Origin: an uncultured Bacteroidales bacterium
GTDB taxonomy: Bacteria; Bacteroidota; Bacteroidia; Bacteroidales; Muribaculaceae
Assembly (NCBI GenBank): GCA_902776955.1
Contig: CACYSG010000005.1
Location: forward strand, 32,967 to 96,966
Length of the DNA stretch: 64,000 bases
Direction of reading: 5' to 3'
Shown here: in pieces, positions 3,390 through 50,622 of the stretch
Position numbering within the stretch: position 1 is the first letter of the stretch
Layout of the letters: every line of letters begins with the position of its first letter
Notes under the pieces: model-generated
Seen by the model: the letters and a program-made list of their open reading frames with translations, nothing else
The model's database searches: none
Told to the model about the DNA's origin: nothing
Translations under genes and position numbers: made by a program

Positions 3390-3409
3390 AGTCTAATAAT
3401 CCGGGAACT

Positions 3410-4441: not shown

Positions 4442-4447
4442 TTGACT

Positions 4448-6100: not shown

Positions 6101-6129
6101 GAAACTAGATACTTTTATCTTAATTATTT

Positions 6130-6957: not shown

Positions 6958-6962
6958 TAACC

Positions 6963-9001: not shown

Positions 9002-9071
9002 GCGGCATCTTCTTCAAGTCTCAAAAAGGTGATGCAAGATGGCCGTAATGAGGTTTATTTTGGGGATGTTT

Positions 9072-9102
9072 TTTGTTTTTTTGAAAAAAGGATTTAACTT
9101 TG
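9072..9102 (+). promoter_or_regulatory. Bacteroidota sigma-ABfr type promoter
   Basis: TTTG at 9072-9075, a 19-bp spacer, then TAACTTTG (TAnnTTTG) at 9095-9102. This is an exact match to the Bacteroidota primary-sigma consensus, 55 bp upstream of the ATG at 9158. It separates the secreted repeat protein from the men operon. Confidence 0.8.
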
Positions 9103-9157
9103 TCGGTCTTAATCAGTCTAAAGGACAAAATAACAACTTTTTAAGGAGGACAGAAAA

Positions 9158-9589: not shown

Positions 9590-9599
9590 CGTTTAGGCG

Positions 9600-10724
9600 A
9601 TGAAACGCTTCATGCTTGCATTGGCTATTGTGCTATTCGTGGCCAATAGTCTTTTTGCGCAGTTGCCACCCGACTCGGTGCTGCGTCGCTATGCCGCCGG
9701 AATGCTCATGGTGGGCTTCAAGGGCGACAGCGTGACTGCCGACTGCGATGCGGCGCGCTATGTGCGTGACCTCAAGGTGGGTGCTGTTGTGCTGTTTGAC
9801 ATCGACCTGACGGGTGACGCCACCCTCGGGTCGCGCAACATCACCAGCAAGGAACGCCTCACGCGCATGACCGCCCAGCTGCAGGCATGGGCCGATTATC
9901 CGCTACTCATCGCCACCGATCAGGAGGGAGGCAAGGTGGCGCGCCTCAAGACGCGCTACGGTTTCCAGCCGACGGTAACTGCCGAATACCTCGGCACCGT
10001 CGATAACGAGGACACCACACGCTACTATGCCTCAAGGCTCGCCCGCGAGATGCGCGAGGCAGGCGTGAACGTCAACCTGGCGCCCGTGGTCGATGTGCTC
10101 AACCACGACTGCGCCGCCGTGGGACACTACAACCGCTGCTTTTCGGCCGAGACCGACGTGATTGTCCGCCATGCCGGATGGTTCATCGACGAGTGCCGCC
10201 GTCAGGGTGTGTTGTGTACCCTCAAGCATTTCCCCGGCCACGGCAACGCCATCAGCGACTCGCACTATGGCTTTGTGGATGTCACCGATGCCTGGACCCC
10301 GCGCGAGCTGGAGCCGTTTGCCCGACTCATCGACGCCGGCCAGGCCGACCTGGTGATGACGGCCCACCTGTTCAACCGCCACATCGATGCCGACTATCCC
10401 GCCACGCTGTCCTCCAAGACCATCAACGGCCTGCTGCGCGGGCAGATGGGTTTTGACGGCATTGTAGTCACCGACGACCTGTACATGCAGGCCATCCTGG
10501 ACAACTACAGCATCGAGACCGCGCTTGAACTGGCCATTAACGCGGGGGCCGACCTCATCTGTGTGGGCAACAACATCAACACGGGATATGAAGCCGACCG
10601 CCCCTACAGGCTCGTGGACATGATTGTCAACCTGGTCAAGCAGGGGCGCATTCCCTGGCAACGCCTGCAGGAATCCCGCCAGCGGGTGCTGAGAATTGTA
10701 GAAACGCAAAATCTTGCGTCTTAA
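9600..10724 (+). CDS. secreted glycoside hydrolase family 3 (NagZ-like beta-N-acetylhexosaminidase)
   Basis: 374 residues with a signal peptide (MKRFMLALAIVLFVANSLFAQ). The GH3 catalytic barrel is clear: IATDQEGGKVARL, NLAPVVDV, LKHFPGHGNAISDSHYG (the bacterial NagZ KHFPGHG plus D-x-H motif that supplies the acid/base pair) and VVTDDLYMQAI (Asp nucleophile). The likely role is removal of GlcNAc from peptidoglycan muropeptides or other glycans outside the cytoplasm. It is a single-domain enzyme without the C-terminal domain of beta-glucosidases. The last codons (ETQNLAS, stop) are encoded inside a copy of the GACGCAAAA palindrome repeat, so the native C-terminus may have been altered by repeat insertion. 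Confidence 0.9.
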   Translation: MKRFMLALAIVLFVANSLFAQLPPDSVLRRYAAGMLMVGFKGDSVTADCDAARYVRDLKVGAVVLFDIDLTGDATLGSRNITSKERLTRMTAQLQAWADYPLLIATDQEGGKVARLKTRYGFQPTVTAEYLGTVDNEDTTRYYASRLAREMREAGVNVNLAPVVDVLNHDCAAVGHYNRCFSAETDVIVRHAGWFIDECRRQGVLCTLKHFPGHGNAISDSHYGFVDVTDAWTPRELEPFARLIDAGQADLVMTAHLFNRHIDADYPATLSSKTINGLLRGQMGFDGIVVTDDLYMQAILDNYSIETALELAINAGADLICVGNNINTGYEADRPYRLVDMIVNLVKQGRIPWQRLQESRQRVLRIVETQNLAS

Positions 10725-10752
10725 TGGAATATGCAAAATCTTGCGTCTAAGT
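10702..10752. repeat. degenerate copy of the GACGCAAAA palindromic repeat, overlapping a gene end
   Basis: Two half-elements (acgcaaaatcttgcgtct and gcaaaatcttgcgtct) lie head to tail here. They match the 84-bp elements at 31185 and 61108, with C in place of T in the centre of each palindrome. The first half-element encodes the last residues and stop codon of the GH3 gene. Confidence 0.7.
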
Positions 10753-10792
10753 AAATTTGAAATATAATTTTTAGGATATAATATAATTGATT

Positions 10793-11857
10793 ATGAAAAA
10801 GATACTGTTTTTCGCTTTAATCGCCTTGTGTGTCGCCACGGCTTTCGCCGACGATAAGAACCCCGGCAAGAAGCCGCCGCGTCCCCGCAGTGCCAGGCCC
10901 GCAAAGCCCATCGTCATGCCTCCCTCGCTCAAGCCGGGTGACAAAATCGCCATCATCTCGCCCGCCAGCACCCCATCCGCCGATAATCCCGAGAAGGCAG
11001 CCGAGACGCTGAGAGCCTGGGGCTTCGTTCCCGTCATCGGCTCTCATGCGCTGGATTCTTACCATGGCTATGCCGGAACCATCGCACAGCGTTGCGCCGA
11101 TTTGAATTGGGCTCTCTATGATCCTGAAATCAAGGCTATTGTGTGCACGCGTGGCGGTTACGGCTCGTCGATGCTGCTGGGCCCGATGCGTCGTGACGAC
11201 TTCGCCAAGAATCCCAAGTGGATTGTGGGCTACAGCGACATCACCGCCCTGCACAGCGCCATGGTGACGAGCGGCGTGATGAGCCTCCATGCCAACATGG
11301 GCGGAGCGCTGGGTTCGCGCGGTAAGGACGACCCCGTCAACCAGATGCTGCTCAACGTGCTCACGGGCACGCTTCCCGCCTATGAAGTGCCTGCCCACCC
11401 GCTCAATGTGGCGGGCAAGGCCGAGGGCATCGTCATTGGCGGCAACATGGCCGTGTTCACCAACATCAGCGGCAGCGGCCAGTGGGACTTCCTGGACCGC
11501 AGTCAGATCATGTCCCGCGACGTCATCCTCTTCTTTGAGGACGTCAGCGAGAGCATCCCGCGTGTCAACAGCATGCTGCAGGCGCTGCGCCTCAAGGGCG
11601 TGCTCAATCACGTCAAGGGCATTATCGTGGGACGATTCACCGAGTATGAATCACGCGACGGCTACAACGACATGAACGAGATGCTCAACGAGACCCTTGG
11701 CGGCCTGGGCATTCCCGTATGCTATGATTTCCCGGCCAGCCACGACGAGGAGTGGAACTACCCGATGATCGAGGGCTGTAAAGCCGAACTCATCGTGACC
11801 ACCGATGGCGTCTCACTCACCTTTGTGAATGAGAATGAGGAGACGGCCACCGAATAA
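10793..11857 (+). CDS. S66 family LD-carboxypeptidase, exported
   Basis: Cleaves the terminal D-alanine of murein tetrapeptides between L- and D-residues, part of peptidoglycan recycling. 354 residues from ATG 10793; a TTG at 10787 is less likely. A signal peptide (MKKILFFALIALCVATAFA) suggests periplasmic action, unlike cytoplasmic E. coli LdcA. S66 motifs: LKPGDKIAIISPAS, the nucleophile-elbow CTRGGYGSSMLL (Ser), VGYSDITALHSA, GGNMAVF, ILFFEDVSE (Glu) and FPASHDEEWNYP (His). Its place after a NagZ-like GH3 supports a joint wall-turnover role. Confidence 0.9.
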   Translation: MKKILFFALIALCVATAFADDKNPGKKPPRPRSARPAKPIVMPPSLKPGDKIAIISPASTPSADNPEKAAETLRAWGFVPVIGSHALDSYHGYAGTIAQRCADLNWALYDPEIKAIVCTRGGYGSSMLLGPMRRDDFAKNPKWIVGYSDITALHSAMVTSGVMSLHANMGGALGSRGKDDPVNQMLLNVLTGTLPAYEVPAHPLNVAGKAEGIVIGGNMAVFTNISGSGQWDFLDRSQIMSRDVILFFEDVSESIPRVNSMLQALRLKGVLNHVKGIIVGRFTEYESRDGYNDMNEMLNETLGGLGIPVCYDFPASHDEEWNYPMIEGCKAELIVTTDGVSLTFVNENEETATE

Positions 11858-11905
11858 GGTGCTGATATCGTTTTTGATACCCCATTTTAACTACTCCCCT
11901 GCACG

Positions 11906-12448
11906 ATGACTAGGAAAGATAAACTGTTGCTACTGGCGATTGTGGCGGTGCTGCTGATTGTGGCGGCACACGCCTTCCTGTCGGTGGACGTTGTGCGGCA
12001 TGGCAGCAAGGTCATCTCACGCGTCGAACTCAAGAACCTCGATCCTGCCAACAACGGCATCAATATTGAGGTCACACAACCCTGGTACAATCCTAAAAAG
12101 GAACTGGCGTTCAACGTCGGCGACCCCGACGAACGCGATTTCGACCGATTTGATGTCACCAGGTGCCTGCTCCAGTGCGCCCAGGAACTCGGACAGCGTG
12201 ATTTCAGCCGCATCTACCTGTGCAACAAGGGCGACCGGCTTTATTACATCAATGCCGACGACTTCAAGCAACTGGGCGAGCAATACAAGAACGGCGAGAC
12301 GATTAACACGCTCAGCCTCTATGTGAAGCTGCCTCGGGTGACCTACACCCTCAACGACAGCCTCGCCTTTCCCGAGCACCCGGGCATGTTGGGCTCCATC
12401 AACGATGCCCAGGACTGGAACACAATGATGTCCAACCTGTTGCGTTAA
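11906..12448 (+). CDS. hypothetical protein with N-terminal membrane anchor
   Basis: 180 residues, family not recognised. Residues 6-25 (KLLLLAIVAVLLIVAAHAFL) form one hydrophobic helix; the remainder is hydrophilic with alternating charged and aromatic residues and is probably periplasmic. It contains no cysteine pair or catalytic motif that I can identify. It lies 48 bp after the S66 carboxypeptidase on the same strand and could belong to that transcript. The codon use is like its neighbours. Confidence 0.75.
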   Translation: MTRKDKLLLLAIVAVLLIVAAHAFLSVDVVRHGSKVISRVELKNLDPANNGINIEVTQPWYNPKKELAFNVGDPDERDFDRFDVTRCLLQCAQELGQRDFSRIYLCNKGDRLYYINADDFKQLGEQYKNGETINTLSLYVKLPRVTYTLNDSLAFPEHPGMLGSINDAQDWNTMMSNLLR

Positions 12449-12559
12449 CGACCGCACCACTCAGGCTTATGACACATCGCCTTTTGGGTCCTTTTTTGGA
12501 CACAACGATTTTGTCGCCTTTAGGGCGATAAACGTTCAGGTTATGTATAGGGTGGGGGA

Positions 12560-13426
12560 TTACTGCTGGCCTGTGCCCCATAGGAGTTTCTGGCGCAGCG
12601 TGCGGGCAAAGTTGTTCCCCTCGAGTTGCACCACGCGGGCACAATAGGGCGCGCGGGCGATGGTCAGCGTCGAGCCCGTCGGGCACAGGGTCACTTCACC
12701 ATCGATACTCACCTCGTAGTGTTTTGCCCGCGAGTAGGTGCGGACGGCGATTTCGCTGTCGTCGCGAACCACCAGCGGACGCATCGTCAGCGAGTGCGGC
12801 GAGATGGGGGACAATACCAGGCACGACGTCGTCGGCTCCAGTATCGGGCCGCCGACGCTCATGTTATAGGCCGTCGAGCCCGTCGGCGTGCTCACGATCA
12901 GGCCGTCGCCCCTGTAGGTCGTGAGTTCATGGGAGCACAGCCGTGTTTCCATGTCGAGCATCGACGAGGTCTCGTGCCGCAGGATGGCCACCTCGTTGAG
13001 TGCCCACGGGTGCTGAATGAGGGTGGCATCACACGCCACCTGCAGCATCGTGCGCTCCTCGATGCGGTAATGCCCGGCCAGCACCTCGTCCAGCACGCCG
13101 CTCTGGCGGTCCAGGTTGCCGGCTGTCAGGTAACCCAGGTGGCCCAGGTTCACCCCCAGGATGGGCATGCCCTGGCGCGACACCCACATCACCGTCGTCA
13201 GGAACGTGCCGTCGCCGCCCAGCGACAACGCCATGTCGGCCTCGGGCACCGCGTCGGCGTCAAACGACGACACACCCTCCAACTTGCCGGCCCCGCACAG
13301 GTAGCAGTAGAAATCTCGCTCCACGGCCACGTCGATACCGCGCTCGGTCAGATGGCGGACAAACTCCTGCACCTGGGCGATGTCTCCCTGCTGATAGGTG
13401 TTACCGAATATCACAAATCTCTTCAT
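12560..13426 (-). CDS. nadK: NAD kinase
   Basis: Phosphorylates NAD to NADP in the cytoplasm. 288 residues. Diagnostic motifs are LGGDGTFLTTV (GGDG phosphate-binding loop, about residue 70), GVNLGHLGYLT, LNEVAILRHETSS (NE motif) and YRGDGLIVSTPTGSTAYNMSVGGPI. The start ATG is preceded by TATCTTTG only 5 bp away, which suggests a leaderless or nearly leaderless mRNA. It is convergent with the hypothetical gene to its left. Confidence 0.95.
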   Translation of the reverse strand: MKRFVIFGNTYQQGDIAQVQEFVRHLTERGIDVAVERDFYCYLCGAGKLEGVSSFDADAVPEADMALSLGGDGTFLTTVMWVSRQGMPILGVNLGHLGYLTAGNLDRQSGVLDEVLAGHYRIEERTMLQVACDATLIQHPWALNEVAILRHETSSMLDMETRLCSHELTTYRGDGLIVSTPTGSTAYNMSVGGPILEPTTSCLVLSPISPHSLTMRPLVVRDDSEIAVRTYSRAKHYEVSIDGEVTLCPTGSTLTIARAPYCARVVQLEGNNFARTLRQKLLWGTGQQ

Positions 13427-13431
13427 GACGG

Positions 13432-13439
13432 CAAAGATA
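13432..13439 (-). promoter_or_regulatory. -7 element of nadK, five bases from the start codon
   Basis: TATCTTTG reads on the minus strand at 13439-13432 and the nadK ATG begins at 13426. Transcription normally starts a few bases after this element, so the message should begin at or next to the AUG. Confidence 0.6.
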
Positions 13440-13602
13440 ATACTTTTTTGGATTTTACGTTATTTAGGTATCAGGTTTTAGGTGACAATCACCTGTTGCT
13501 CTAGCTTGATGTCGTGTCCTCGCCGTTAATATCAAAACCCTAAAGACCCTAAAAATTGGTTAATTTCGGGCATTAGAATGGTGAGGTTTCAAAGATTATG
13601 AG

Positions 13603-13610
13603 TAATTTTG
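13603..13610 (+). promoter_or_regulatory. -7 element upstream of the DUF2723 gene
   Basis: TAATTTTG (TAnnTTTG), 69 bp before the ATG at 13679. No TTTG lies at the ideal -33 distance, so the promoter is weaker or differently spaced. The rest of 13427-13602 shows nothing else I recognise. Confidence 0.5.
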
Positions 13611-13678
13611 CCGTTTAGTACACGATTAAACTATAAAAACCGAAATAAAACCAATATTTTTTTCACAACAGAGTAACG

Positions 13679-16600
13679 ATGAAGAAGTACAAGCTCATCA
13701 ACAACACGCTGGGATGGCTCATCTTTTTGGTGGCAGCGGTGACTTACCTGCTGACCATCGAGCCGACAGCCAGCTTCTGGGACTGCCCGGAGTTTATCGC
13801 CCAAGGTTTTAAGACCGAAATTGGTCACCCGCCCGGCAACCCGATTTTTATTCTTGCCGCCAATTTCGCCAGCAAGTTTGCCGGCGGTGACGTGATGGCT
13901 GTCGCCAAGTGCGTCAACGCAATGTCGGCAATCTTCAGTGCGCTGACGATCCTGCTGCTTTTCTGGTCCATCACCCACCTGGTGAAGAAACTCGTCGTTA
14001 AAGACGGCGAGGAGGACAAGATGACGCTCACGCAGTATCTGGTGGTGATGGGTAGCGGTATCTGCGGTGCCCTGGCCTACACCTGGAGTGACACTTTCTG
14101 GTACAGTGCCGTTGAGGCCGAGGTTTATGCCTTCTCGTCGTTATGCACGGCGCTGGTATTCTGGCTCATCCTCAAGTGGGAGAACAGGGCCGACGAACCT
14201 AGCAGCGACCGCTGGATTGTGCTGATAGCCTATGTGCTGGGCGTGTCGCTGGGTGTGCACCTGCTCAACCTGCTGTGCATCCCCGCCATCGCGCTGATTT
14301 TCTATTATCGCCAGTGCCGTTCCCACGGCAAGGACTCGACGGTGAAGGGTTCGCTCCTGACGCTGCTCGTGTCGTTTGTCATCGTGGGCCTAATTCTGTA
14401 CGGTCTGGAGCCTGGATTCGTCGAGATGGGTCAGAAGTTTGACCTGTTCTTCGTCAACACGCTGGGCATGTCGTTCAATTCGGGTGTGCTGGTTTATGCC
14501 ATCGTGCTGCTGGCCGCTCTGGCTTGGGCGCTGTGGGAACTCTACAGCAACAAGAGCGACTTCCGCATCAAGTTGTCGTTTGTCGTGGCCATCCTGTTGT
14601 CAGGTATGCTGCTGCTGGGCGACGGCATCGTGATTCCCCTGGTGCTGTTCATCGGCCTGTGCGTTTATATGTTCCGCTTCTGCCAGAAGGTTCCCGTGCG
14701 CGTGCTCACCAATATCGTGTCGTGCATCATGGTGATCTTCATCGGCTTCAGCTGCTATGCGCTGATTCTTATCCGCAGCTCGCAGAACACCCCGCTCGAC
14801 GAGAACTCGCCCAACAACACGTTTGCTCTGGCCAAGTACTTGAGCCGCGAGCAGTATGGCGAGACGCCGCTGTTGTATGGCCGCACGCTCTATAGCGACA
14901 TCATGTATCAGGAGTCGGATAACGGTACCATGCAGCCCGCCGTCAAGGAGGGTCCGATGCAGTATGCCCCCGAGGTGAAGTCCTCGCCCGACGAGCCCGA
15001 CCACTACAAGGAACTGGGCACTAAGAAGACCTATCGTTACAGCCCCGAGCAGAATATGCTCTTCCCGCGCATCCATGACGACAAGCATGAGCGCGAGTAT
15101 ATCGACTGGCTCGGCATGCAGGGTACTCAGGTACAGGCCACAACACGCCTCGACAGTGAAGGCAACCCGGCAGGTACCGAGACCAAACTCAAGCCGACGA
15201 TGATGGAGAACCTGCGCTTCTTTGTGGACTACCAGTTGAACTACATGTACTGGCGCTACTTCATGTGGAACTTCTCGGGACGCCAGAACGATATCCAGGG
15301 CATGGGCGAAATCACCCACGGCAACTGGATCTCGGGCTACTCGTTCATCGATAATCCGCGACTGGGCGACCAGAGCCTGCTGCCCGACGACCTGGGCAAG
15401 GGCAACAAGGGTCACAACGTGTTCTACATGCTGCCGCTGCTCATGGGCCTCATCGGCCTCTTGTGGCAGGCCTACCGCGGACGTCGCGGCATCGAGCAGT
15501 TCTGGGTGGTATTCTTCCTGTTCTTCATGACGGGTATCGCCATCGTGCTCTACCTGAACCAGACGCCCAGCCAGCCGCGTGAGCGTGACTATGCCTACGC
15601 TGGTTCGTTCTATGCCTACAGCATCTGGATCGGTATGGGTGTTGCCGGACTGTGGAGCTTTGTGATGTGGGCACTCCGCAAGAAGGGCAAGAAGGCTGCC
15701 AAGGGCGAGGCCACCGTGGCTACCGATGGTGGCTACCGTGGTGGCGCAGCTGTTGCTGTGGCCGCTTGTGCCGCTCTCATCGGTCTGGCAGTGCCCCTGC
15801 AGATGGTAAGCCAGACGTGGGATGACCACGACCGCAGCGGACGTTCAGCGGCTCGTGACTTCGGCCGCAACTACCTGTCGAGCGTGGCCCCCAACGGTAT
15901 CATCTTCTGCAATGGTGACAACGACACCTTCCCCCTGTGGTATCTCCAGGAGGTGGAGGGCTACCGCACCGACGTGCGTGCCGTGAACCTGAGTTACCTG
16001 GCTACCGACTGGTACATCAGCCAGATGCAGCGTGCGGCCTATGAGTCCGCTCCGCTGCCCATGCTGGCCGACAAGAATACCTACGCCTATGACGAGCGCC
16101 AGTTCTGCTACTTCATGCAGCCCGACCTGACGCCCACCGAGGCCCTCAAGTCGCTCGCTCAGGTCTATGGCCCCGATAGCAAGAACAACCCCTACGGCAT
16201 GAACGAAATCCGCTATCCGCGCGTTTACATGCCCGTCGATGCCGACCAGGCCATCAAGGCTGGTATCGTGCGCGCCGAGCAGCGCGACATGATCGAGCCG
16301 TCGATCAACTTGGACCTGCAGCGCATGGGTGCTGGCATGAGCGCCAGCCAGTTGATGTCGTTCGACATGATTGCCAGCAGCATCGCACAGGGCTGGAATC
16401 GTCCCTGCTACTTCGCCATGACGGTGCCCGACAGCTACTATCTGGGACTGACTCCCTATCTGCGTCTGACCGGTCTGGCCTATCAGGTGACCCCCATCAA
16501 CGCCGACAATCATCGTGGCGACATGGGTGTATCGACCGACGTGATGTATGACAACGTGGTGAATAAGTTCCTGTGGGGCGGTTTGGATACCGCCAAGCCC

Positions 16601-41023: not shown

Positions 41024-41118
41024 CTAACGTCTAAGGTCTAATGTCTAAGGTCTAAAGTCTAACGTCTAACGTCTAAGGTCTAAAGTCTAAGGTCTAAAGT
41101 CTAACGTCTAAAAACTAA
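41024..41118. repeat. heptamer tandem array (gtctaag/gtctaac/gtctaaa) before comM
   Basis: About thirteen consecutive 7-bp units between the metalloprotease stop and the comM ATG, without interruption. It resembles the arrays before ispG and after gyrB. Length variation by slippage is expected. Confidence 0.8.
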
Positions 41119-41124
41119 AAAATC

Positions 41125-42649
41125 ATGTTAGCGAGAACGATAGCAGCAGCAGTGCAGGGCATCGACGCCATCAAGGTCGAGGTCGAGGTGACCGTCGACT
41201 GGGGGTCGGGATTCATGATTATCGGTCTGCCCGACACGGCCGTCAAGGAGAGTGCCGAGCGCGTGCGCTGCGCCATCCAGCAGACGGGAATCGACTTCCC
41301 GGGCAAGAAGGTGATGATCAATATGACGCCTGCCGACATCAAGAAGGAAGGCTCGGCCTATGACCTGCCCTTGGCCATCGGCATCCTTGCCGGCGACGAG
41401 AAGATCATGCCCGACCGCTTGGGCCGCTTTATGCTCATGGGCGAACTCTCGCTCGACGGCACGCTACGACCCATCAAGGGCGCCCTGCCCATGGCTATCC
41501 TCGCTCGTCAGCTGCACCTCGACGGATTCATCGTGCCGCGTGCCAACGCCCTCGAGGCTGCCGTTGTCAACAACCTTGATATCCTTGCCGTGGACAACCT
41601 TGTCGAGGTGATACAGTTCCTGAACGGGGATATCGACATCCAACCGACCGTCGTCGACACCCGCGCCGAGTTCGCCAAGGCCCAGGGCGTGTTCCCCTAC
41701 GACTTCGCCGACGTCAAGGGACAGGAAAACGTCAAGCGCGCCTTTGAGGTCGCCTGTGCTGGCGGACACAACATCCTGCTCGTGGGCAGCCCGGGCTCCG
41801 GCAAGTCGATGATGGCCAAGCGCCTGCCCTCCATCCTGCCGCCGCTCACCTTGGGCGAAGCCCTCGAGACCACCAAGATTCACAGCGTGGCCGGCAAACT
41901 GAAGCAGGGTACCACGCTGATGACCGTGCGCCCCTTCCGCAGCCCGCATCACACCATCTCGCCTGTCGCCCTCGTCGGTGGCGGCTCCTTCCCCATGCCT
42001 GGCGAAATCTCCTTGGCCCACAACGGCGTCCTCTTCTTGGATGATTCTTGAGGTGATGCGTCAGCCGCTGGAAGACAGGATAATAAGTATCAGTAGGGCA
42101 AAATACAGTACCGAATATCCCGCTTCGTTTATGCTCGTGGCGAGCATGAATCCGTGCCCGTGCGGATACTATGGGCATCCCAAGAAGAAATGCGTCTGCA
42201 ACGAGTACCAGCGCACCCACTATATGAGCAAAATCTCGGGTCCATTGCTTGACCGTATCGACCTGCAGATTGAGGTCCAGCCCGTTGATTTTGACCAGAT
42301 GTCGAGTAAAGCCCCAGGCGAACCCAGCGCCGCCATCCGCCAGCGCGTCATCGCCGCCAGAATGCTCCAGGAGCGCCGCTTCAAGGACGAACCCGGCATC
42401 CACTGCAACGCCCAGATGACCCCGTCCCTGCTCCACAAATACGCCGAGCCCAACGCCGCCGGCCTGGAGAAGTTGAAGGATGCCATGGAACGCATGAACA
42501 TGAGTGCCCGCGCCTACGATCGCATCCTCAAAGTCGCCCGCACCATCGCCGACCTCGAGGCCTGCGCCGACGTCCTCGACCACCACATCATGGAAGCCAT
42601 CGCCTACCGCAACCTCGACCGCCCCACGTATATGGGCACCAACCTATAG
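41125..42649 (+). pseudogene. comM: comM (Mg-chelatase-like AAA+ helicase), frame broken at Walker B
   Basis: ComM/YifB helps branch migration during natural transformation. The 5' part (41125-42045) encodes the N-terminal fold (ARTIAAAVQGIDA, GSGFMIIGLPDTAVKES) and Walker A (LLVGSPGSGKSMMAKRLP, about residue 215), then reads VLFLDDS and stops at 42051. The expected Walker B is [13 protein letters not shown](V/I)LEVMRQP. Here bases TTGGATGA join directly to TTCTTGAGG, which removes 23 bp and shifts the frame. The rest (from 42044) continues in another frame through [48 protein letters not shown] to the normal end DRPTYMGTNL. Without Walker B the protein cannot hydrolyse ATP. Fragments of the gene recur at 44280, 46873 and 48333. 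Confidence 0.92.
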
Positions 42650-42660
42650 AATTCTTGATT

Positions 42661-43209
42661 ATGTCAGAGATAAAAGAATTATATGTGATTGAGTGGATGG
42701 GGCCTTATAAGTCCCTTGACGATATTTGTAACTACGATGATACAATGATGTGTCGATTCTATTTGCTTACGGGACGACTTGGCCGTGAAACTAATGGCAT
42801 TAAGTATGTTGGTATAACAAAGCGTTACCCAGAGCAACGTCTTTCAGATAAAGATGATTTGAAGAAGCAAGAAATGATAAAAGAGAAGCAGTACTGGGTA
42901 GGGCGCTTTTCTGTTTCGTCGTACAATAATCTTGATAAACCTAGAAATAGGAATAGAGCAGAATTGATAGAACGTCTCATTATTAGGTATCTTTACGAAA
43001 GCAATGTGAGAATAATCAATACAAATAAGACACAATCAGACCCCGAAAACCCCGTTGGTATTATTTCAAGATGGTTAAAGAAAGATACAAATGCTTTAAG
43101 GTCAAACAAGCCAAGTGTTTTACAAGTCTTGCCTGATGTCTTGTTGTATTGCAATGGGAAATACTTGAGTGCTCCAAATATGAGAATTGATATTGAATCG
43201 GGATTGTAA
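42661..43209 (+). CDS. GIY-YIG-like nuclease domain protein (accessory)
   Basis: 182 residues from ATG 42661, 11 bp after the comM stop. The pattern CRFYLLTGRL...GIKYVGITKRYPEQRLSD, then NRAELIERLIIRYL, fits a GIY-YIG nuclease: a first strand replacing GIY, YVG for YIG, the catalytic Arg in EQRL and the metal-binding Glu in ELIE. The assignment is by motif only and the first motif is degenerate. It is clearly AT-richer than comM and has different codon use, a sign of transfer. It is followed by RhuM 33 bp downstream; the two form the first cargo module inside the comM remnants. Confidence 0.55.
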   Translation: MSEIKELYVIEWMGPYKSLDDICNYDDTMMCRFYLLTGRLGRETNGIKYVGITKRYPEQRLSDKDDLKKQEMIKEKQYWVGRFSVSSYNNLDKPRNRNRAELIERLIIRYLYESNVRIINTNKTQSDPENPVGIISRWLKKDTNALRSNKPSVLQVLPDVLLYCNGKYLSAPNMRIDIESGL

Positions 43210-43242
43210 CGGAAAAGAAATAGCTAAACTCTGTAATTCTCA

Positions 43243-44271
43243 ATGAATATGCCTGACCAAGAGAAAAATATCATCATCTACCGCACTGCCGATGGCCGCG
43301 CATCGGTTGCACTATATGCCCATGACGGCAAGATTTGGGTCAACCAACATCAGATGGCAGAACTTTTTGCCACCTCCAAGCCCAATATTAGTATGCATAT
43401 AGCCAACATCCTGAAAGAGAATGAGTTGACAGAAGATACAGTTGTTAAGAAATTCTTAACAACTGCCGCTGATGGCAAGAGTTACAACGTCATTTTCTAT
43501 TCGTTAGAGATGATTATTGCAGTGGGTTATCGTGTGCGTGGCTTGCGAGGTACTCAATTCCGCCAATGGGCGACTGAACACTTGACCGAGTATTTGGTTA
43601 AGGGATTCACAATGGATGATGAAAGGCTTAAGAACCCCGATGGGCGACCTGACTACTTTGATGAACTGTTAGCGAGGATTCGGGACATTCGGGCTTCAGA
43701 GAAGCGTTTCTATCAAAAGATTCGCGATTTGTTCGCGCTCAGCAGCGACTACGATAAAGCAGACAAGGCAACACAGATGTTCTTTGCTGAGACGCAGAAC
43801 AAATTACTCTATGCTGTCACCCATCAAACTGCCGCCGAACTCATCTGCGCTCGTGCCGATGCCGAGAAACCCAACATGGGCTTGACAACATGGAAAGGGT
43901 CCATTGTCCGCAAGGGCGATATCACCATCGCGAAAAACTATCTGCAAGACGTTGAAATTGACCGACTGAACCGCCTCGTTGACATCTTCCTGACATCAGC
44001 CGAAATGCGCGTTCAAGACCGCCGAGACCTCACTCTTGACTACTGGCGCGATAACGTTGATAATCTTCTCGCCTTCCAGGGAATGGACGTTCTCCAAGAC
44101 AAAGGCTCCGTTTCCAATGCCCAAATGGAGACTCATGTCCGTGAAGTCTACGCCGACTTTGACACCAAACGCAAACGCTTAGAAGCCCAACAAGCCGACG
44201 CCGACGACCTCAAACTCCTAGAAGACATCGAAAAACGTCTTCTCAACCAATCAAATAACGAGCAAGAGTAG
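43243..44271 (+). CDS. rhuM: RhuM family protein
   Basis: 342 residues. The N-terminus ENNIIIY-like segment ([54 protein letters not shown]) and [57 protein letters not shown] are the RhuM (Virulence_RhuM) signature. The C-terminal half is helical, with a [28 protein letters not shown] core. RhuM was named in Salmonella pathogenicity island 3. Members are common in mobile islands across bacteria and their biochemical role is not settled. The stop codon lies 8 bp before comM fragment B. Confidence 0.9.
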
Positions 44272-44279
44272 ATGGTAAC

Positions 44280-44448
44280 GCCATGGAGCGCATGAACATG
44301 AGCGCCCGCGCCTACGACCGCATCCTCAAAGTCGCCCGCACCATCGCCGACCTCGAAGGCCTGCGCCGATGTCCTCGACCACCACATCATGGAAGCCATT
44401 GCCTACCGCAACCTCGACCGCCCAAGCTATATGGGCAGTATCTTGTAA
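44280..44448 (+). pseudogene. comM 3' fragment B (169 bp)
   Basis: From gccatggagcgcatgaacatg to the stop after TATATGGGCAGT this copies the last 55 codons of comM ([26 protein letters not shown]...YMGSIL). It differs from the main copy (42482-42649) at scattered silent sites. One extra base near 44357 (cgaaggcctg for cgaggcctg) breaks the frame. It begins 8 bp after rhuM and ends 7 bp before the stop of the convergent FRG gene. Confidence 0.9.
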
Positions 44449-44455
44449 TTCCTTG

Positions 44456-45529
44456 TTAATCGTGAGTATTAGCTTTAGTCTTTTTGACTTCTATAATCTT
44501 CTTATTCTTTTCTTTGCTGTGGATTTCAAAATGTTCTTTTAAAAACTTTGCTACACCATCATAGCCAGGGAACATGGTTGAAGCATTATATCCCATTTTC
44601 TCAATGTGAGAATATATGCCATATGAAGAATCTTGTGGGATTGTAATTTGGTAAAGGTAAGTCCTTTTTTCAGCTTTTATTTCTCTCAAATAAGAGTCAA
44701 GCTGTTCATCCAGCGAACGCCTATCAGTTTTTGGCTCATGGTTCAGTTTCATCTTCCCTTTTTTGTCTAATAATCCTGGATAGAATGACTCCCAAAAAGT
44801 GAACATACCCTTTTGGGCACAAAGATTATCATTACTGTGATATCTGGGCTGAATGATCCGTAATGGTATTTGCATCGGTTTAGCCATCACCACATCAATG
44901 TTCATAGCCCAGATCTCCATATTATATTTTGGAGGATAGATTTCACCTTGTCTTCGGGCCTTAAAAGCCGTAATTAGATTGAACCTTTCCTTCGGATTAT
45001 TGTATACACCCGTCGCGGCAAAATATAACGCGACATAAATGTCATGAGTCCAGTCTAGCAAACGCGTTTTGACTCCATGGTGCTGGGCAAGCGCTGCTAA
45101 CTCCCAATACTCCTTCGGAATCCATTTATTCTTTAAAAACAATATTTCGCCATCAACACCTGGATAGAATGAATTGCGGAGTGATTCAATATGAGGAATG
45201 TACAGGCCACAATTATCACAAACTCTAAAGAAATCTTGCAGTAACTTATATTCTTCTTGAATCTGAACTAACTCTGTTGAGGCAAGAAATGCTACTTGTT
45301 TTAGTTTTTCTTCAGAAGCAGATTCAATATCTGTGATACTATCAATTGCTAAGTTGCCCCTAAGAGCCGTTGGTATTAATTCATATTTATCAGTTGAATG
45401 ACCACGGAATATATAATGTTCATCGAACAAATTATATAGCTCTCCCTTGTACGAAATGGCTGCTATAAAGTCATCTGCATTTTCAAAATGGATGGCTTTA
45501 ATATATGGAGAATTTTGTACATGTAGCAT
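44456..45529 (-). CDS. FRG-domain protein (accessory)
   Basis: 357 residues. The N-terminal FRG domain is clear: [22 protein letters not shown] (about residues 38-58, containing the F-x-G/RG name motif), and later [31 protein letters not shown] (about 140-170). The C-terminal part has [42 protein letters not shown], typical for the family. FRG proteins are frequent in mobile and defence-type islands, but a biochemical function is not established to my knowledge. AT-rich relative to the core genes. A 56-residue gene lies 27 bp upstream on the same strand. Confidence 0.9.
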
Positions 45530-45556
45530 AGTACATTAATTAAGTTTATCATACAA

Positions 45557-45727
45557 TCACATTTGCGATTTCTGTATCGCTTCTAACCATTTTGCAAAAT
45601 GCGTTGCGTCATCTATTTGCTGACAATACTTTTCTGCTACAAGAGGATGAAATGCAGCTCTTATCGATTGCTTGAGAGCTTGTATGAGAAATTTTCTCCT
45701 GATATCCTTTACAATGTCATTTTCCAT
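45557..45727 (-). CDS. 56-residue small protein upstream of the FRG gene
   Basis: The frame runs from ATG 45727 to TGA 45557 and encodes MENDIVKDIRRKFLIQALK, then QSIRAAFHPLVAEKYCQQ, and ends AKWLEAIQKSQM. It is helical and amphipathic with no signal peptide. It was found by reading the gap; no family recognised. Its 27-bp distance to the FRG start and shared strand suggest one transcript, and such a small helical partner could be a regulator or antitoxin-like companion (inference). Confidence 0.6.
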   Translation of the reverse strand: MENDIVKDIRRKFLIQALKQSIRAAFHPLVAEKYCQQIDDATHFAKWLEAIQKSQM

Positions 45728-45926
45728 AATACTGATGTATGAATATTATGGAGACAAAGATATGCAATTAATCTAGACGAGAACAAATGTTACTGTGTTG
45801 TTTTATTGACATTCTATTGACATACTATTGTATCAAGAATTGCATCAATGTGTTGTAAAGTAGCATACAAAAACGGTTGATTTACCATATAGATAAATCA
45901 ACCGTATGCTACGTTAGAAGATGTAA

Positions 45927-46400
45927 TTATTCAACAATAATCGTCTTTGTGGTGTAGTTAGAATAAACAACTATTTGGACACCCTTTTCTTCTTTGTTCA
46001 CAGGCAAGCCTTGTAGGTTGTATCGTGCTACTTCGTACGCTTCAGTATCAACAGTGATGTCTCTTTGATATGTTATTATACCTGGATCATCTGGGTTAGT
46101 AGAAGATGTTTTTTTTGAGAGTAGATAGTTAACCGTAGATATAAAAGAGCTGGCACTTGTTGAAGTTGCTGAACTGCTCATAAATTCAACTTCATAACCT
46201 TCTTGTGCTAGGAGGTTAAGAATGTTACCAACTTTATCAGCAATATAACTACTCATACCCTCTGGAATGTCACCAGTAAGATAACAATATTGGTTGGTTA
46301 GATTACTTAATTGAGTTGCATGCAAATTAATATAACTCTTTTGTGCATAAGAACTAGCACCCGCTACGAGAAGCAATAAAAATAAGAAAATTTTTTTCAT
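45927..46400 (-). CDS. small secreted protein with sorting-like C-terminus
   Basis: 157 residues. A signal peptide (MKKIFLFLLLLVAGASSYAQ) is followed by a serine/threonine-rich middle (SSSATSTSASSFISTVN). The C-terminus EVARYNLQGLPVNKEEKGVQIVVYSNYTTKTIIVE has the Bacteroidota tail pattern YNLQG-x-x-V...G-x-x-I-V...K-I-x-V, which resembles T9SS or related sorting tails. Function unknown. It lies within the low-GC cargo between comM fragments B and C; an exported protein there is unexpected for a purely intracellular defence module. Confidence 0.75.
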   Translation of the reverse strand: MKKIFLFLLLLVAGASSYAQKSYINLHATQLSNLTNQYCYLTGDIPEGMSSYIADKVGNILNLLAQEGYEVEFMSSSATSTSASSFISTVNYLLSKKTSSTNPDDPGIITYQRDITVDTEAYEVARYNLQGLPVNKEEKGVQIVVYSNYTTKTIIVE

Positions 46401-46499
46401 AAATCTATATCTTTGTAGTTAATAGAAAATATTAGTTTAATCTGTTAATATTCAGAGGTCATTTCAATAAAAGACGTGGGCTGCTTTTTATGCCACGCT

Positions 46500-46630
46500 T
46501 TGTAGTCTGACGGTCGTGAGAAAACCTTGAACGCAAAAGGGGATAAAAGAGACAGTCCACGCCGTAGCGTGGAAGCAGTCTTGCCTTCTCTTGCGTTCGT
46601 TTGAAAGTTTCTCACATTTTCAGACTACAA
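46500..46630. ncRNA. structured 131-nt inverted-repeat element, candidate small RNA
   Basis: The ends TTGTAGTCTGA / TCAGACTACAA pair perfectly (11 bp). Nested inside are GTGAGAAA / TTTCTCAC, GAACGCAA / TTGCGTTC and a central hairpin CCACGC-cgta-GCGTGG (46557-46572). The nesting of four in-register helices separated by small bulges is like a long rod RNA (6S-like or retron-like) but equally like a MITE. There is no ORF. Neither strand is favoured by the sequence. The rest of 46401-46872 shows a TATCTTTG at about 46773 and no gene. Confidence 0.45.
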
Positions 46631-46872
46631 GAATGAGCATAACGCTTCTTTCTTCCAAAATGTCTTGGATTGCCTAGCAATCCATCGGCAAATATAGTCA
46701 TTTTTTCACAAGTAGAGTCAACTTGCTTGCATTTTTTTACTTGAATGCTCTCAGAAACACGTTTTTGTTGTGTATCTTTGTGGTTGTGGATGGCTTTATG
46801 GTATATGTTTTGGTCGTTTTGGGGGCTTTATGGTTGACCTTGAGGCTGTTGCAATGACACAAGTCGTTCCGC

Positions 46873-47097
46873 TTGGATGAACTACCCGAATTTAATCGCT
46901 CCGTTTTAGAAGTGATGCGTCAGCCGCTGGAAGACAGGATAATAAGTATTAGCAGGGCGAAATACAGTACCGAATATCCCGCATCGTTCATGCTCGTGGC
47001 GAGCATGAACCCGTGCCCGTGCGGCTACTACGGCCACCCCAAGAAGAAATGCGTCTGCAACGAGTACCAGCGCCCGCACCTCGGCATCAACTTGTAA
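46873..47097 (+). pseudogene. comM internal fragment C (Walker B to finger, then fused tail)
   Basis: Starts at TTGGATGAACTACCCG ([18 protein letters not shown]) and runs through [50 protein letters not shown]. It then jumps to RPHLGINL and stops, the last eight residues resembling the native RPTYMGTNL end; the join is at CGCCC. It therefore contains exactly the Walker B segment the main comM copy has lost, and its left border is the same TTGGATGA. The codons before GTGATGCG are unusually AT-rich. Confidence 0.9.
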
Positions 47098-47194
47098 AAT
47101 AAAGTTTTGTACAATTATTTTGTCATTGGAGATTTTTGTGTAATTTTGCGACATCATAATGTTGAAATATTAAGATAAAACTACAATAAGGTGT

Positions 47195-48334
47195 ATGTAT
47201 AACAGGATAATTAACCTTGATAACGAGTATAATGACAGTGTGTTTTTGTGGGGCGCGCGCCAGGTGGGCAAGACTACATGGCTGAATGCAAAGTATCCTG
47301 CTTGTCGCACTTATGACTTGCTACGACCATCGGAGTTTGAGCGATTGTTGCGCAGGCCTGAGATTTTGTCTGAGGAATTGGAGAGCTTTGGCGAAAATGA
47401 TACGGTCATCATCGATGAAATACAGAAACTGCCGCAATTGCTTGACGAAGTGCACTCGCTGATACAAAGAAAAAACATTCGATTCATCTTGAGCGGGTCG
47501 AGTGCCAGAAAATTGAAAAGATTGGGCACGAACCTATTAGGCGGTCGGGCGTCCCGTGAACTGATGTTTCCTCTTGTCAGCGCCGAGATTCCCGATTTTG
47601 ACCTTATTCGTGCTGTGAACAATGGCATGATTCCACGCCATTACATGGTGGATAATCCTAAAGAACGTCTGCGTGGCTACGTCGGCATCTACCTGAACGA
47701 GGAGATACGGCAGGAGGCCTTGACGCGTAATCTTCAGTCATTTTCGCGATTCCTAGAAATCGCTGCTCAGTGTGACGGCGAAATGTTGGTCTACAAGAAC
47801 ATTGCTCAAGACTGTGGTATTGATTACCGAACGGTGAAAGAATACTTTACTATTCTTGAGGACACATTGTTGGGTTATCTCATTCCAGGTTTCACGTCAT
47901 CACGCAAACGCCGGGCGATTGCAGCTCCCAAGTTCTATTTGTTCGATGTTGGTCTTGCCAATTATCTCACCCATCGTGGTACATTGCGCCCTGGCAGCGA
48001 TGACTTTGGGCATGCATTCGAGCATTTCATCATTCAAGAAATCATAGCCTATTTGGGTTATAACCACATTGATGAACGGCTCACTTACTGGCGCACATCA
48101 GGTGGATATGAAGTAGATGCCATTGTCGGAGAGGGACGCCTGGCAATCGAAATCAAAGCAACAGACGAAGCCAAGTCGCGCCACACTCATGGATTGAAGG
48201 CGTTCAGGGAAGACTTTTCTGAAGCCCGCTTGATCATCGTATCACTTGACAAATACCGCCGTATGATGAATGGTGTAGATATCATCCCAGCCACCGAATT
48301 CCTGCGAGACCTATGGCAAGGAGGTATCGTGTAA
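47195..48334 (+). CDS. AAA ATPase with DUF4143 domain (accessory)
   Basis: 379 residues. The N-terminal ATPase has Walker A WGARQVGKTT (residues 19-28), Walker B TVIIDEIQKLP (about 70) and the sensor-like RFILSGSSARKL (about 95). The C-terminal DUF4143 part contains YFTILEDTLLGYLIPGF, KFYLFDVGLANYL and the nuclease-like GYEVDAIVGEGRLAIEIKAT (a PD-(D/E)xK-like pattern, ExD...EIK). These ATPases are very common, fast-diverging accessory genes in Bacteroidales; their job is unknown. Its stop codon (TAA) overlaps the first base pairs of comM fragment D. Confidence 0.9.
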   Translation: MYNRIINLDNEYNDSVFLWGARQVGKTTWLNAKYPACRTYDLLRPSEFERLLRRPEILSEELESFGENDTVIIDEIQKLPQLLDEVHSLIQRKNIRFILSGSSARKLKRLGTNLLGGRASRELMFPLVSAEIPDFDLIRAVNNGMIPRHYMVDNPKERLRGYVGIYLNEEIRQEALTRNLQSFSRFLEIAAQCDGEMLVYKNIAQDCGIDYRTVKEYFTILEDTLLGYLIPGFTSSRKRRAIAAPKFYLFDVGLANYLTHRGTLRPGSDDFGHAFEHFIIQEIIAYLGYNHIDERLTYWRTSGGYEVDAIVGEGRLAIEIKATDEAKSRHTHGLKAFREDFSEARLIIVSLDKYRRMMNGVDIIPATEFLRDLWQGGIV

Positions 48335-48389
48335 AGTCGCCCGCACCATCGCCTACATCGAGGTCTGCGCCGCCATCCTCGACCACTAC
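48333..48389 (+). pseudogene. comM 3' fragment D (57 bp)
   Basis: aaagtcgcccgcaccatcgc and the following bases match comM 42528-42584 ([19 protein letters not shown]) with about six substitutions. It carries no start or stop of its own and begins inside the stop codon of the DUF4143 gene. Confidence 0.8.
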
Positions 48390-48470
48390 AGCAGGGGCGT
48401 GAAAGTATCACCCAACTTCCATCAGGGGAGGTTGGGTGATGCTTACTCTAGGGATGAAGGTGATGTTTTC

Positions 48471-50090
48471 TTATTTGTACAGGAAGCGTTTGATGGTTTT
48501 TTTCGGGGTCTTTTCGAAGGGCTCCTCCATCAATTCCACTTTTGTGATCTTGCTGTAGGCGGGAAGGGATTTGTTGGCTTCGTTGCGCATGTTTCCAGGG
48601 GCGGCCGATTTGGCCTCGTCGTCCATGTCATCGGGGAATTCGGGATATACGAGTGCCACAATCTTCCCGTCGCGGTCCACGACGAGACATTCGCTCACAT
48701 ACTGGCAGTTGGCCAGGACGGCCTCCACCTCTTCGGGATAGATGTTTTGGCCCGAGGAGTTCAGGATCATCGACTTGATGCGTCCGCGGATAAAGATGTT
48801 GCCGCTCTTGTCCATCACGCCCAGGTCGCCGGTGCGGAACCAGCCGTCCTCGGTAAAGGCAGCCTCGGTTGCTTCGGGATTGTTGTAATAGCCTATCGTC
48901 AAGTTGGGTCCCTTGGCTTGGATTTCGCCGGGTATGTTTTGGGGATCCTCCGAGTCGATGCGCAGGTCGTGGACGGGTTTGCCGCAAGACCCTGGCACGA
49001 ACTTCTTCCAGCTTTCATATCCCAGCAGCGGGCAGGCTTCGGTCATACCATAGCCCACGGTATAGGGCAGGTGTATCTTCTTGAAGCATCGCTCAGCCTC
49101 GGGGTTGAGCGCCGCTCCACCCATGATGAAGCATTGCACGCTACCGCCGAAGGCTTCTATCATCTTGTTGCGGGCTTTTCTGTAAATCAGTTGGTTCAGC
49201 CCCGGGATGGCAAGCAATGTTTTTGCTTTTTCCAACGCGGGTTTGATGGCGTTGGCATAGATCTTCTCCATCACCAGCGGCACCGTCACCACCATATAGG
49301 GCTTGATGTCCTGCATCGCTTTGAGAAGGGTAGTGGGCGATGGGGTCTTGCCCAGGAAATACACGGTCACTCCATCGACGTTAGGATGGATGAACTCGAT
49401 GGCCAATCCGTACATGTGAGCCAGCGGTAACATCGAAACAATCGTTTGGCCGGGCGTGTTCGGGAAGTGTGTGTTGGCGAAGTCGTCGGTGTCTGATATG
49501 GCATTGTAGGTGAGCATGACACCCTTGGGGTTGCCCGTGGTTCCCGACGTGTAATTAATGATGGCCAGGTCGTCGGCATTGTCGGTCGGATAGGCCACCT
49601 GTTCGGGCCACATGCCATTGGGATAACGCTCCGAGAACGCCTTCTTGCGGTTGTCCCAGGCGTCGGCCGTCACCTGATCCCGGTGCCAGAGCAGATTGCC
49701 GTCCCTCACATTGATGGCGGCTTTGAGTTTAGGCATTTCCTCTGGATTCTGTTTTGCCCATATGTCGTCATCAACAAAAAGCACAACACTGTCTGAATGG
49801 TTGGTGAGGATAGATACCGTGCTCGGGTGAAAGTCGGCCAATAGAGGGACCGCCACACATTCATTGACATTGATTCCCCAAAAGGTCATCGCCCATCGGG
49901 CTGAATTGCGTGCACACAGAGCGATTTTATCACCCTTATTGATTCCGGCTGCAGCAAAGAAGATGTGGAACCGTTCGATATTTGTGGCCAGCTGGGCATA
50001 GGTAAAAGAGTCGCCGTTGTAGTCACACAGGGCTTTTTGGGTCCATTGTTCGCGGACCGTTTGTTCCAATTTCGACAAATAGTGCCTCAT
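48471..50090 (-). CDS. long-chain fatty-acid--CoA ligase / AMP-binding enzyme
   Basis: 539 residues from ATG 50090 (MRHYLSKLEQ); ATG 50120 is possible. ANL superfamily: P-loop INYTSGTTGNPKGVML (about residue 180), A5 motif VGYGMTEACPLLGYES (about 345), A7 FRTGDLGVMDKSGNIFIRGR (about 415) and the C-terminal lysine KTPKKTIKRFLYK at the end. It activates fatty acids with CoA for lipid synthesis; it is cytoplasmic or membrane-associated. It marks the return to core-like sequence after the comM island, convergent with the cargo. Confidence 0.9.
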   Translation of the reverse strand: MRHYLSKLEQTVREQWTQKALCDYNGDSFTYAQLATNIERFHIFFAAAGINKGDKIALCARNSARWAMTFWGINVNECVAVPLLADFHPSTVSILTNHSDSVVLFVDDDIWAKQNPEEMPKLKAAINVRDGNLLWHRDQVTADAWDNRKKAFSERYPNGMWPEQVAYPTDNADDLAIINYTSGTTGNPKGVMLTYNAISDTDDFANTHFPNTPGQTIVSMLPLAHMYGLAIEFIHPNVDGVTVYFLGKTPSPTTLLKAMQDIKPYMVVTVPLVMEKIYANAIKPALEKAKTLLAIPGLNQLIYRKARNKMIEAFGGSVQCFIMGGAALNPEAERCFKKIHLPYTVGYGMTEACPLLGYESWKKFVPGSCGKPVHDLRIDSEDPQNIPGEIQAKGPNLTIGYYNNPEATEAAFTEDGWFRTGDLGVMDKSGNIFIRGRIKSMILNSSGQNIYPEEVEAVLANCQYVSECLVVDRDGKIVALVYPEFPDDMDDEAKSAAPGNMRNEANKSLPAYSKITKVELMEEPFEKTPKKTIKRFLYK

Positions 50091-50622
50091 AGTTTTCCTT
50101 GTTTTATCATCTACAAACATTTTGGCATAATAACCAAAACAATTAAATTAATTCACCCAAAAGTACAACAATTTTTTTAATTATCGCTCTTTTTGGGCAA
50201 AAACCTCGTTTTTGTAACGATACGCCTCATGTGTTAATATATTTTAACAAACTAGTGCCGAGAAATTGGCACACATTTGACATATTTTTGTGGCGTGAAA
50301 GTTAAAAACACATTTTTTGCGAACTATGCAGATAGGCTGCGTAGTGCTGATGTACCTTTGCCGGCACTTTGTGGCATCGCCCCAAGTGTTAAACTGAAGT
50401 TAAATATCCCTTGTGGATTGAATTTTTTGTTGTTGATTTCCATATTACATTTATCCCGCCCTTGAGAGGGAAAAATAGTTGCCTAGTTCTCACCTCTGCC
50501 ATGAGGTTCTATTCCAGTGATTTAGAAACATTTCTGAAACACCTAGGGTTGATTGATTTTTATGTGAGTGAATTGCCATTTTTTTTCAATGTATTTATTA
50601 ACGTCCTAAAACGAAAAAGCGA
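50091..50622. other. intergenic stretch, no gene supported
   Basis: AT-rich. A TATTTTTG -7-like element occurs at 50283-50290. The short frames here have no family features, and I see no RNA gene. Confidence 0.4.

Follow-up and report, generated by a model that had tools for sequence, protein, structure and literature searches.

A broken comM gene and its displaced pieces

The window analysed here is a stretch of 64,000 nucleotides (nt) from an uncultured Bacteroidales bacterium of the family Muribaculaceae (contig CACYSG010000005.1, positions 32,967 to 96,966), and its subject is an array in which the gene comM is followed by further pieces of its own 3' part. The genome assembly comprises 3.23 Mb in 123 contigs, is approximately 90% complete and carries the array on its contig C5. 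In the array, comM and three more comM pieces lie on one strand with low-GC cargo between them, and an acyl-CoA ligase gene (fadD-like, 48471..50120, minus strand) is found at the far side; interval comparison shows that this gene is the right neighbour of the array both here and in many relatives. A first-pass annotation of the same DNA had described four comM pieces on one strand at about these places, which is borne out, and had taken the first of them, piece A (41125..42649, plus strand), to be nearly whole, which it is not. Alignment by tblastn with the 515-residue ComM of an intact relative places codons 1–307 at 41125–42045, followed by codons 315–515. Codon 307 runs to 42045 and codon 315 begins at 42044, giving a 23-nt deletion and a frameshift across codons 307–315. 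The lesion begins immediately 3' of the Walker B site (codons 305–307, TTGGATGA, 42037..42051, plus strand), which sequence comparison identifies as the joining place of class 1 in relatives (see below).

The three remaining pieces, all on the plus strand, are shorter. Piece B (44278..44448) is a displaced comM tail covering codons 460–515 by tblastn, with a frameshift where the reading frame changes between 44360 and 44365. Piece C (46873..47097) is a displaced tail starting at codon 305, in which codons 305–373 are fused to a comM-like end that reads directly as LGINL and stop. Piece D (48333..48396) is a remnant matching codons 477–498 at the DNA level and overlapping the stop of a DUF4143 gene that ends at 48334. 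The fused end of C, the overlap of D and the limits of A and C had all been given correctly, whereas B had been started at 44280 and D ended at 48389. What had gone unmentioned is a 103-nt sequence directly 5' of C, designated ATT (46770..46872, plus strand), which comparison with relatives shows to be the conserved right end of the units called class-1 cassettes below. The amino-acid identity of A, B and C to comM is 85–99%, and a query with the comM 3' part against the window's own genome (E ≤ 0.001) returned four matches, A to D, and none elsewhere; together these results exclude a chance origin of the pieces.

Recurrence of the arrays and anatomy of the joint

Displaced tails behind comM are common in relatives; they are oriented like comM in the arrays read, and they precede the acyl-CoA ligase gene wherever the fetched interval includes that gene. 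Cargo had been proposed to be captured repeatedly at comM, in units bounded by comM tails, and comparison of the interval between species agrees with this: the arrays differ, and the one shared block that would have contradicted the proposal is not seen. Many tails start at codon 305 (Walker B, LDELPEF) with ATT directly 5', a sequence that is not present at the corresponding place of intact comM. All or part of ATT was found in 29 of the 101 genomes of the genus. This count derives from a 149-nt query of ATT plus comM that matched 38 genomes, from which eight matched by the comM part only were removed, as was G098, which otherwise held only a 31-nt piece; G100 is counted on evidence separate from that query. 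In the wider family, a 28-nt piece of ATT, allowing three mismatches or fewer, occurred in 17 of 397 genomes, all of this genus (reversed control, 0), in a search that missed the copy of the window's own genome because it is too divergent. A second class is formed by tails that start at codon 281 behind a 27-nt motif, CCCACCACATAATCGTATACTTGTGCC. This motif has 26 sites in 17 of the 101 genomes (reversed-pattern control, 0), and the neighbours were read for 20 of them, the excluded six being those of G086, G103 and G118 and one in G064. The class-1 and class-2 genomes do not overlap, so that 46 of the 101 carry one or the other. Most public contigs matching the arrays are, by their record titles, metagenome-assembled genomes (MAGs) from the ruminant gut, assigned to Muribaculaceae, Prevotellaceae or Bacteroidales.

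The joint itself is exact. Among distinct ATTs (duplicates removed) beside a comM fragment starting at codons 301–316, the only fragments looked for, 32 of 33 adjoin codon 305 at offset 0. The sequences 5' of the 33 ATTs are diverse, forming 23 unrelated groups when compared over 300 nt and 16 over 1200 nt; the corresponding numbers of upstream groups in class 2 are nine and seven (n = 19). Tails that start at one exact place behind a conserved non-comM sequence point to site-specific recombination.

The bases around the class-1 joint were compared between 36 distinct displaced joints and 31 distinct intact genes of one clade. T occupies position 0 in 35 of 36 displaced copies, where 30 of 31 intact genes have C; position +2 is G in every displaced copy (36/36) and mixed in the intact set, and position +5 is T in 34/36 displaced versus 15/31 intact. 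Up to +5 the sequence is mostly that of the element. The GA within the joint is common to both sets, and from +8 on their polymorphism matches. The fixation index (Fst) between displaced and intact copies never exceeds 0.03 at the scorable positions between +7 and +39, and the peptide classes after the joint mirror one another, with 21 FNRS and 10 FSRN among the 36 displaced copies and 18 and 9 among the 31 intact ones. At a distance of only 8 nt, the similarity of two tails is barely predicted by that of their ATTs (Mantel r 0.18, P 0.05). At class-2 joints, comM-like polymorphism begins at +2 (20 distinct displaced versus 19 intact copies; displaced rows were retained if TCGT stood upstream, as it does in all rows read). 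A single inherited fusion, if dispersed by ordinary recombination, should keep the bases adjacent to the joint linked; many independent joinings within a short shared core fit the data better. This suggests, from the alignments, that many independent site-specific joinings have taken place within TGGAYGA.

Despite these joinings the gene is usually open. Among the matches listed, 20 of the 29 ATT genomes have a main comM that is open over 504 codons or more; six (the window genome, G095, G017, G102, G113 and G024) have one with a broken 3' part, and three could not be assessed. In class 2 the main comM is open in 14 of the 17 genomes, interrupted in one and partial in two. This gives an open main comM in 34 of 41 assessable array genomes.

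The two halves of the gene have decoupled histories in the genus, as judged from third-codon-site distances among 28 genus comM genes and 23 from other Bacteroidales. Within each half of the genus genes the distances are correlated (codons 1–152 versus 153–304, r 0.61; 305–404 versus 405–504, r 0.39), whereas across the halves they are not (153–304 versus 305–404, r 0.18; 1–304 versus 305–504, r 0.16; neither significant). In the other Bacteroidales both kinds of comparison give high values (1–152 versus 153–304, r 0.76; 1–304 versus 305–504, r 0.78). Moreover, third-site divergence in the 28 genus genes runs at approximately 0.33–0.49 and falls to 0.05 at codons 481–504, compared with 0.57–0.67 along the whole gene in 24 controls. 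Directly ahead of each cargo, the final ∼100 nt of comM hardly differ between intact copies and most of the displaced ones. Cassette exchange may be the cause of the near-zero synonymous differences at the 3' end, and a constraint at the DNA level may be the cause of the near-invariance of codons 481–504.

Cargo has moved between species. A Panacea-type cassette is common to five loci (L038, L048, L085, L143 and L117), and its SocA (Panacea-domain) gene is 100% identical over 987 nt between L048 and L085, the comM 5' parts of which are 83% identical. Identical cargo without identical comM implies either that the move carried no intact 305–515 half or that this half was later replaced. The right joint of the Panacea-type cassette lies at about codon 476 in L038, L048 and L085, and the RhuM cassettes of the window, L039, L079, L102 and L153 all have theirs at codon 460. 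We read these two joints as deletion derivatives that were spread by homologous recombination between comM tails, which would explain pieces D and B. The first-pass annotation had treated B and D as independent captures of a 3' end; they need not be, as tails from codon 460 and about 476 recur in relatives.

Several side observations concern the tails and ATT. A second conserved stretch of ∼70 nt (AAACAACTGATTAGTCTGAG...) lies at codon 487 in the displaced tails of L042, L045, L049, L076, L037, L041 and L043. A tail-like piece of codons 451–513 is present at G018:C3:195084-195272, on the strand opposite to the comM of that genome and ∼25 kb away from it. Locus L182 (G107:C8:45000-60000) has comM-derived bits, a DUF4143-like gene and ATT at a second chromosomal place, on a contig other than that of comM, with hpt, adk, NAD(P)H-hydrate epimerase and frr as neighbours by eye. 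The fold predicted for ATT, an imperfect hairpin, is weakly supported: the window copy has z −1.75, and only 1 of 25 base pairs shows changes in both partners. The start of ATT, TATCTTTG, resembles the −7 promoter box of Bacteroidetes, and the ATTs of L045, L037 and L039 are open and in frame with the displaced comM tail; together, these features raise the prospect that a truncated ComM might be expressed.

A cassette model and its alternatives

The reading that we prefer, with a probability of about two in three, is that cassettes accrete at comM through a recombinase supplied in trans and are exchanged by homologous recombination via the comM tails. A class-1 cassette consists of comM from codon 307 to the stop, then cargo, then the 103-nt ATT followed by TTGGAT. 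As a putative circle it would recombine site-specifically with comM in the core TGGAYGA at the Walker B codons 305–307. The host 5' half would then be joined to the cassette 3' half, whereby comM reads through again, and the former 3' half would be displaced behind the cargo with ATT ahead of it. Repeated insertion would produce stacked cassettes with displaced tails in between, and older tails would decay by deletion, as B, D and the interior of C may have done. Homologous recombination among the tails would swap cassettes between species and homogenize the 3' end of comM. The enzyme, recognized in none of the arrays, would have to act in trans or be transient; in our inference its most plausible type is a Tsy/TnsF-like tyrosine recombinase. 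In the second clade an equivalent process would operate at codon 281 with the different end motif. Serial recombination of incoming DNA at comM had been suggested from the window alone; homologous exchange via the tails has probably contributed, but many of the joins are not random exchanges at the comM end: they fall at an exact place (codons 305–307, or 281 in the second clade), which speaks for a site-specific process.

The following points weigh against this reading. Neither a PF00589 nor a PF00239 recombinase was found within 50 kb of the arrays in the 12 array genomes searched, ATT gave no hits as exact patterns among IMG/VR viral contigs, and BLAST against plasmids and phages matched comM sequence only, with no ATT carrier. 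Thirteen further distinct ATTs lack an adjoining codon-305 fragment (decayed, partial or at contig ends). To the left of the joint, positions −12, −10, −8, −7 and −2 vary too. A sharp step of decoupling at codon 305 was sought and rejected, the trough being broad (codons 305–361), and the class-2 clade is without decoupling at codon 281 (r 0.60 and 0.61). The main comM is broken or interrupted in 7 of 41 assessable array genomes, the window included. The near-identity of L048 and L085 stops ∼100 nt into the comM 3' end and extends no farther upstream; the breakpoint of the swap among L048, L085 and L143 was not located, the near-identity being confined to those last ∼100 nt, which are conserved genus-wide. 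Some of the cargo does not look recently moved, FRG and ATPase_2 copies being no more alike than core genes in several species pairs. The expectation that the same first cargo should go with the same comM tail was rejected as well, since genomes with RhuM first share no more comM than other pairs do. Finally, the named array contigs come from MAGs or uncultured genomes, and single lesions may accordingly be assembly errors.

With regard to the enzyme, the nearest PF00589 hits on array contigs lie at ∼54 kb (G033, below the cut-off) and 156 kb (G099), and the others are on other contigs; PF00239 gave no hit on array contigs in the 12 genomes. The remark of the first-pass annotation that neither a transposase nor an integrase accompanies the pieces agrees with what was recognized here. 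No Tns protein was noticed by eye among the listed cargo open reading frames (ORFs), a survey that included no search aimed at TnsABC, TniQ or TnsF. The class-2 motif shares CATAAT with dif; a role for XerCD/dif was dropped when four genomes searched with a dif-like pattern showed no site in common. An order with the newest cassette first is not claimed either: longer tails often come first, yet L041, L048 and L200 are exceptions.

The alternative that survives best, which we nevertheless judge unlikely, invokes homologous recombination only, with one ancient fusion of ATT to comM codon 305, RecA-type exchange of tails (for instance following DNA uptake) that has since dispersed and reshuffled the cargo among them, and no site-specific enzyme active now. 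It would account for the lack of a recombinase near the arrays of the 12 genomes, for third-site divergence that falls off along the gene toward its 3' end, for the near-identity of intact and most displaced copies over the final ∼100 nt of comM, and for cargo that is identical where the 305–470 part is not. It accounts poorly for the joint. Alleles of intact comM are found at similar frequency only 2–8 nt from near-fixed element sequence, so that crossovers within a few nucleotides would be needed in many lineages, and ATT terminates 16–23 unrelated upstream contexts. Moreover, two unrelated end motifs at two sites have produced equal anatomy.

A second alternative takes the arrays for remnants of Tsy- or Tn6022-like transposons at the comM Walker B, with the transposition genes lost and comM fragments left around cargo. 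As regards the target, the nearest precedent is set by Tn6022 and Tsy, which recognize a 10-bp region within the comM Walker B; Tsy depends on two catalytically active tyrosine recombinases and forms circular intermediates; extra cargo can precede the 3' comM part; the elements encode a tyrosine recombinase (YRec), a helix-turn-helix (HTH) protein and TnsF, or TnsABC-TniQ-TnsF; and one branch of Tsy has a GIY-YIG gene (PMC10293859). A weakly GIY-YIG-like gene is the first cargo in the window and in L038, and the class-1 joints (codons 305–307) likewise lie in the Walker B. However, the class-2 joints at codon 281 are outside it. Those elements split comM and bring their own recombination genes, whereas here the upstream comM is usually complete, only the 3' part is repeated, a 3' copy of ∼210 codons usually restores the gene, the units are stacked, and PF00589 has no hit near the arrays in the 12 genomes. 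We consider such an origin improbable. Collapse or mis-joining of comM repeats in metagenome assemblies is more improbable still: the named array contigs are from MAGs or uncultured genomes, several contigs do end right after comM, and the lesion of A falls exactly at the joint, but the joints recur in many species and several assembly projects and lie inside contigs of > 100 kb with ordered cargo (for example G033:C12, G007:C28 and G024:C5).

The arrays form a recurrent, genuine system and belong, as a variant, with the tandem integrated elements by which the end of a gene is restored. The closest precedent in layout is provided by the ssrA islands of Dehalococcoides. These stand in tandem behind a conserved gene, and every island is delimited by a repeat of the gene 3' end with a 15-bp non-ssrA motif ahead of it; the repeats are 20 bp of an RNA gene, and 16 islands hold a serine recombinase module (PMC3146451). 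The comM arrays share the gene-end repeats with a non-gene motif, ATT, ahead of them, and differ in using a protein gene, in repeats of up to ∼620 bp and in the lack of a recognized integrase. Like islands that restore a gene end they have a far-side direct repeat of that end, a gene that is usually intact and an exact joint with fixed element sequence on one side, features that also apply to cis-mobilizable elements (CIMEs). CIMEs, together with accretion of integrative and conjugative or integrative and mobilizable elements (ICE-IME), feature attachment-site flanks without recombination genes and tandem accretion at gene ends; in the comM arrays, by contrast, no helper element was found, and the core lies deep inside a protein gene and not in its last bases.

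Integrons stack small cassettes with toxin-antitoxin and defence cargo at one fixed anchor, and clusters of attC sites lacking an integron integrase (CALINs) are those whose enzyme is not in cis. The comM arrays are similarly stacked and anchored, with defence cargo and no enzyme recognized in cis, but the repeat is here the 3' end of a gene, and neither an integron integrase nor an attC-type site was identified; the PF00589 hits of the 12 genomes, obtained with no separate search for integron-type integrases, are all away from the arrays. It is possible, if doubtful at present, that comM is the fixed entry site of an integron-like platform for capturing defence genes, in which comM itself would be the repeat. 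Cassettes would travel as circles of comM 3' part, cargo and ATT, be inserted at the Walker B codons or at codon 281 by an enzyme supplied in trans, and re-form a working ComM. ComM is reported to aid the recombination of DNA acquired by transformation, and the re-formed protein could thus promote the entry of a further cassette.

The literature, searched largely at abstract level, yielded no account of such arrays of comM tails. What sets them apart is the ∼210 codons restored, the site, the lack of a recognized enzyme and the defence cargo. Replacement of the comM gene starts at codon 305 and usually keeps the frame, which suggests that the Walker B, where known elements split comM, can also be used with the gene preserved. 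In this genus of mostly rumen gut bacteria, small gene blocks, many of defence type, are stacked behind comM, and many of them are bounded by a comM piece with one exact starting place, as if inserted one after another by a missing enzyme that usually left comM whole. The arrays offer a precise account, open to testing, of the build-up of toxin-antitoxin and phage-defence genes at one place in largely uncultured gut bacteria, and ATT or the 27-nt class-2 motif can serve as a marker for listing cassettes and for seeking the recombinase.

Cargo of the window and of related arrays

The first cassette of the window lies between A and B on the plus strand. Its 184-residue protein (42655..43209) had been called GIY-YIG-like, for which there is only a weak hint below the cut-off (E 0.071; E 0.011, likewise below, for the gene of a relative). 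It is followed by a gene of the RhuM family (43243..44271; PF13310, E 1.9e-108). The second cassette, on the minus strand, comprises an FRG-domain protein (44456..45529; PF08867), a 56-residue ORF (45557..45727) and a 157-residue protein (45927..46400) that has a 92% nucleotide match in L075. The last two, previously labelled a microprotein and a secreted protein, are present as ORFs without a Pfam family, and secretion of the longer one is probable, as judged by eye. The third cargo is an AAA_14/DUF4143 ATPase (47195..48334, plus strand). The earlier assignments of RhuM, FRG and DUF4143 are upheld by Pfam, and PADLOC lists the three proteins as single-gene candidates PDC-S05, PDC-S15 and PDC-S01, respectively.

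The structured element noted between the second cassette's genes and ATT is a strong, long imperfect hairpin (46440..46690, no strand assigned), found by folding and by copies in relatives; positions 46480–46629 fold on the minus strand with z −6.4. Copies occur in L075 (92%), L041 (88%) and L094 (78%), and the element looks like a miniature inverted-repeat transposable element (MITE) carried inside cassettes. The hairpin matched nothing in Rfam above the gathering score, and a reading as an RNA element was set aside, the ATT fold being weakly supported as well. Tandem CTAACGT/CTAAGGT heptads stand immediately 5' of comM (41024–41121).

Across the arrays, 47 cargo proteins were picked by eye for Pfam and ten of those for PADLOC, a sample and not a census. 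Many belong to toxin-antitoxin and phage-defence families. The families recorded are TIR/Thoeris-like, SEFIR, YhcG, SocA/Panacea, Fic, ORF6N, Schlafen-AlbA, NYN, HNH with homing-endonuclease repeats, McrBC, RloB, GmrSD, AbiEii, YoeB, MoxR, radical SAM and others, together with the M, S and R subunits of a type I restriction-modification system in L217; for 11 of the 47, Pfam assigned no family (E ≤ 0.001). In the class-2 locus L202, a ∼14-kb carbohydrate locus of the SusC/SusD type (names by eye; 705–15127, oriented) extends from comM to the displaced codon-281 tail. In L038, an HNH protein with homing-endonuclease-associated repeats (2808–3470) is encoded in the cassette beside comM, and similar ORFs are found in L111 and L207; a homing-type drive of such HNH-bearing cassettes is conceivable.

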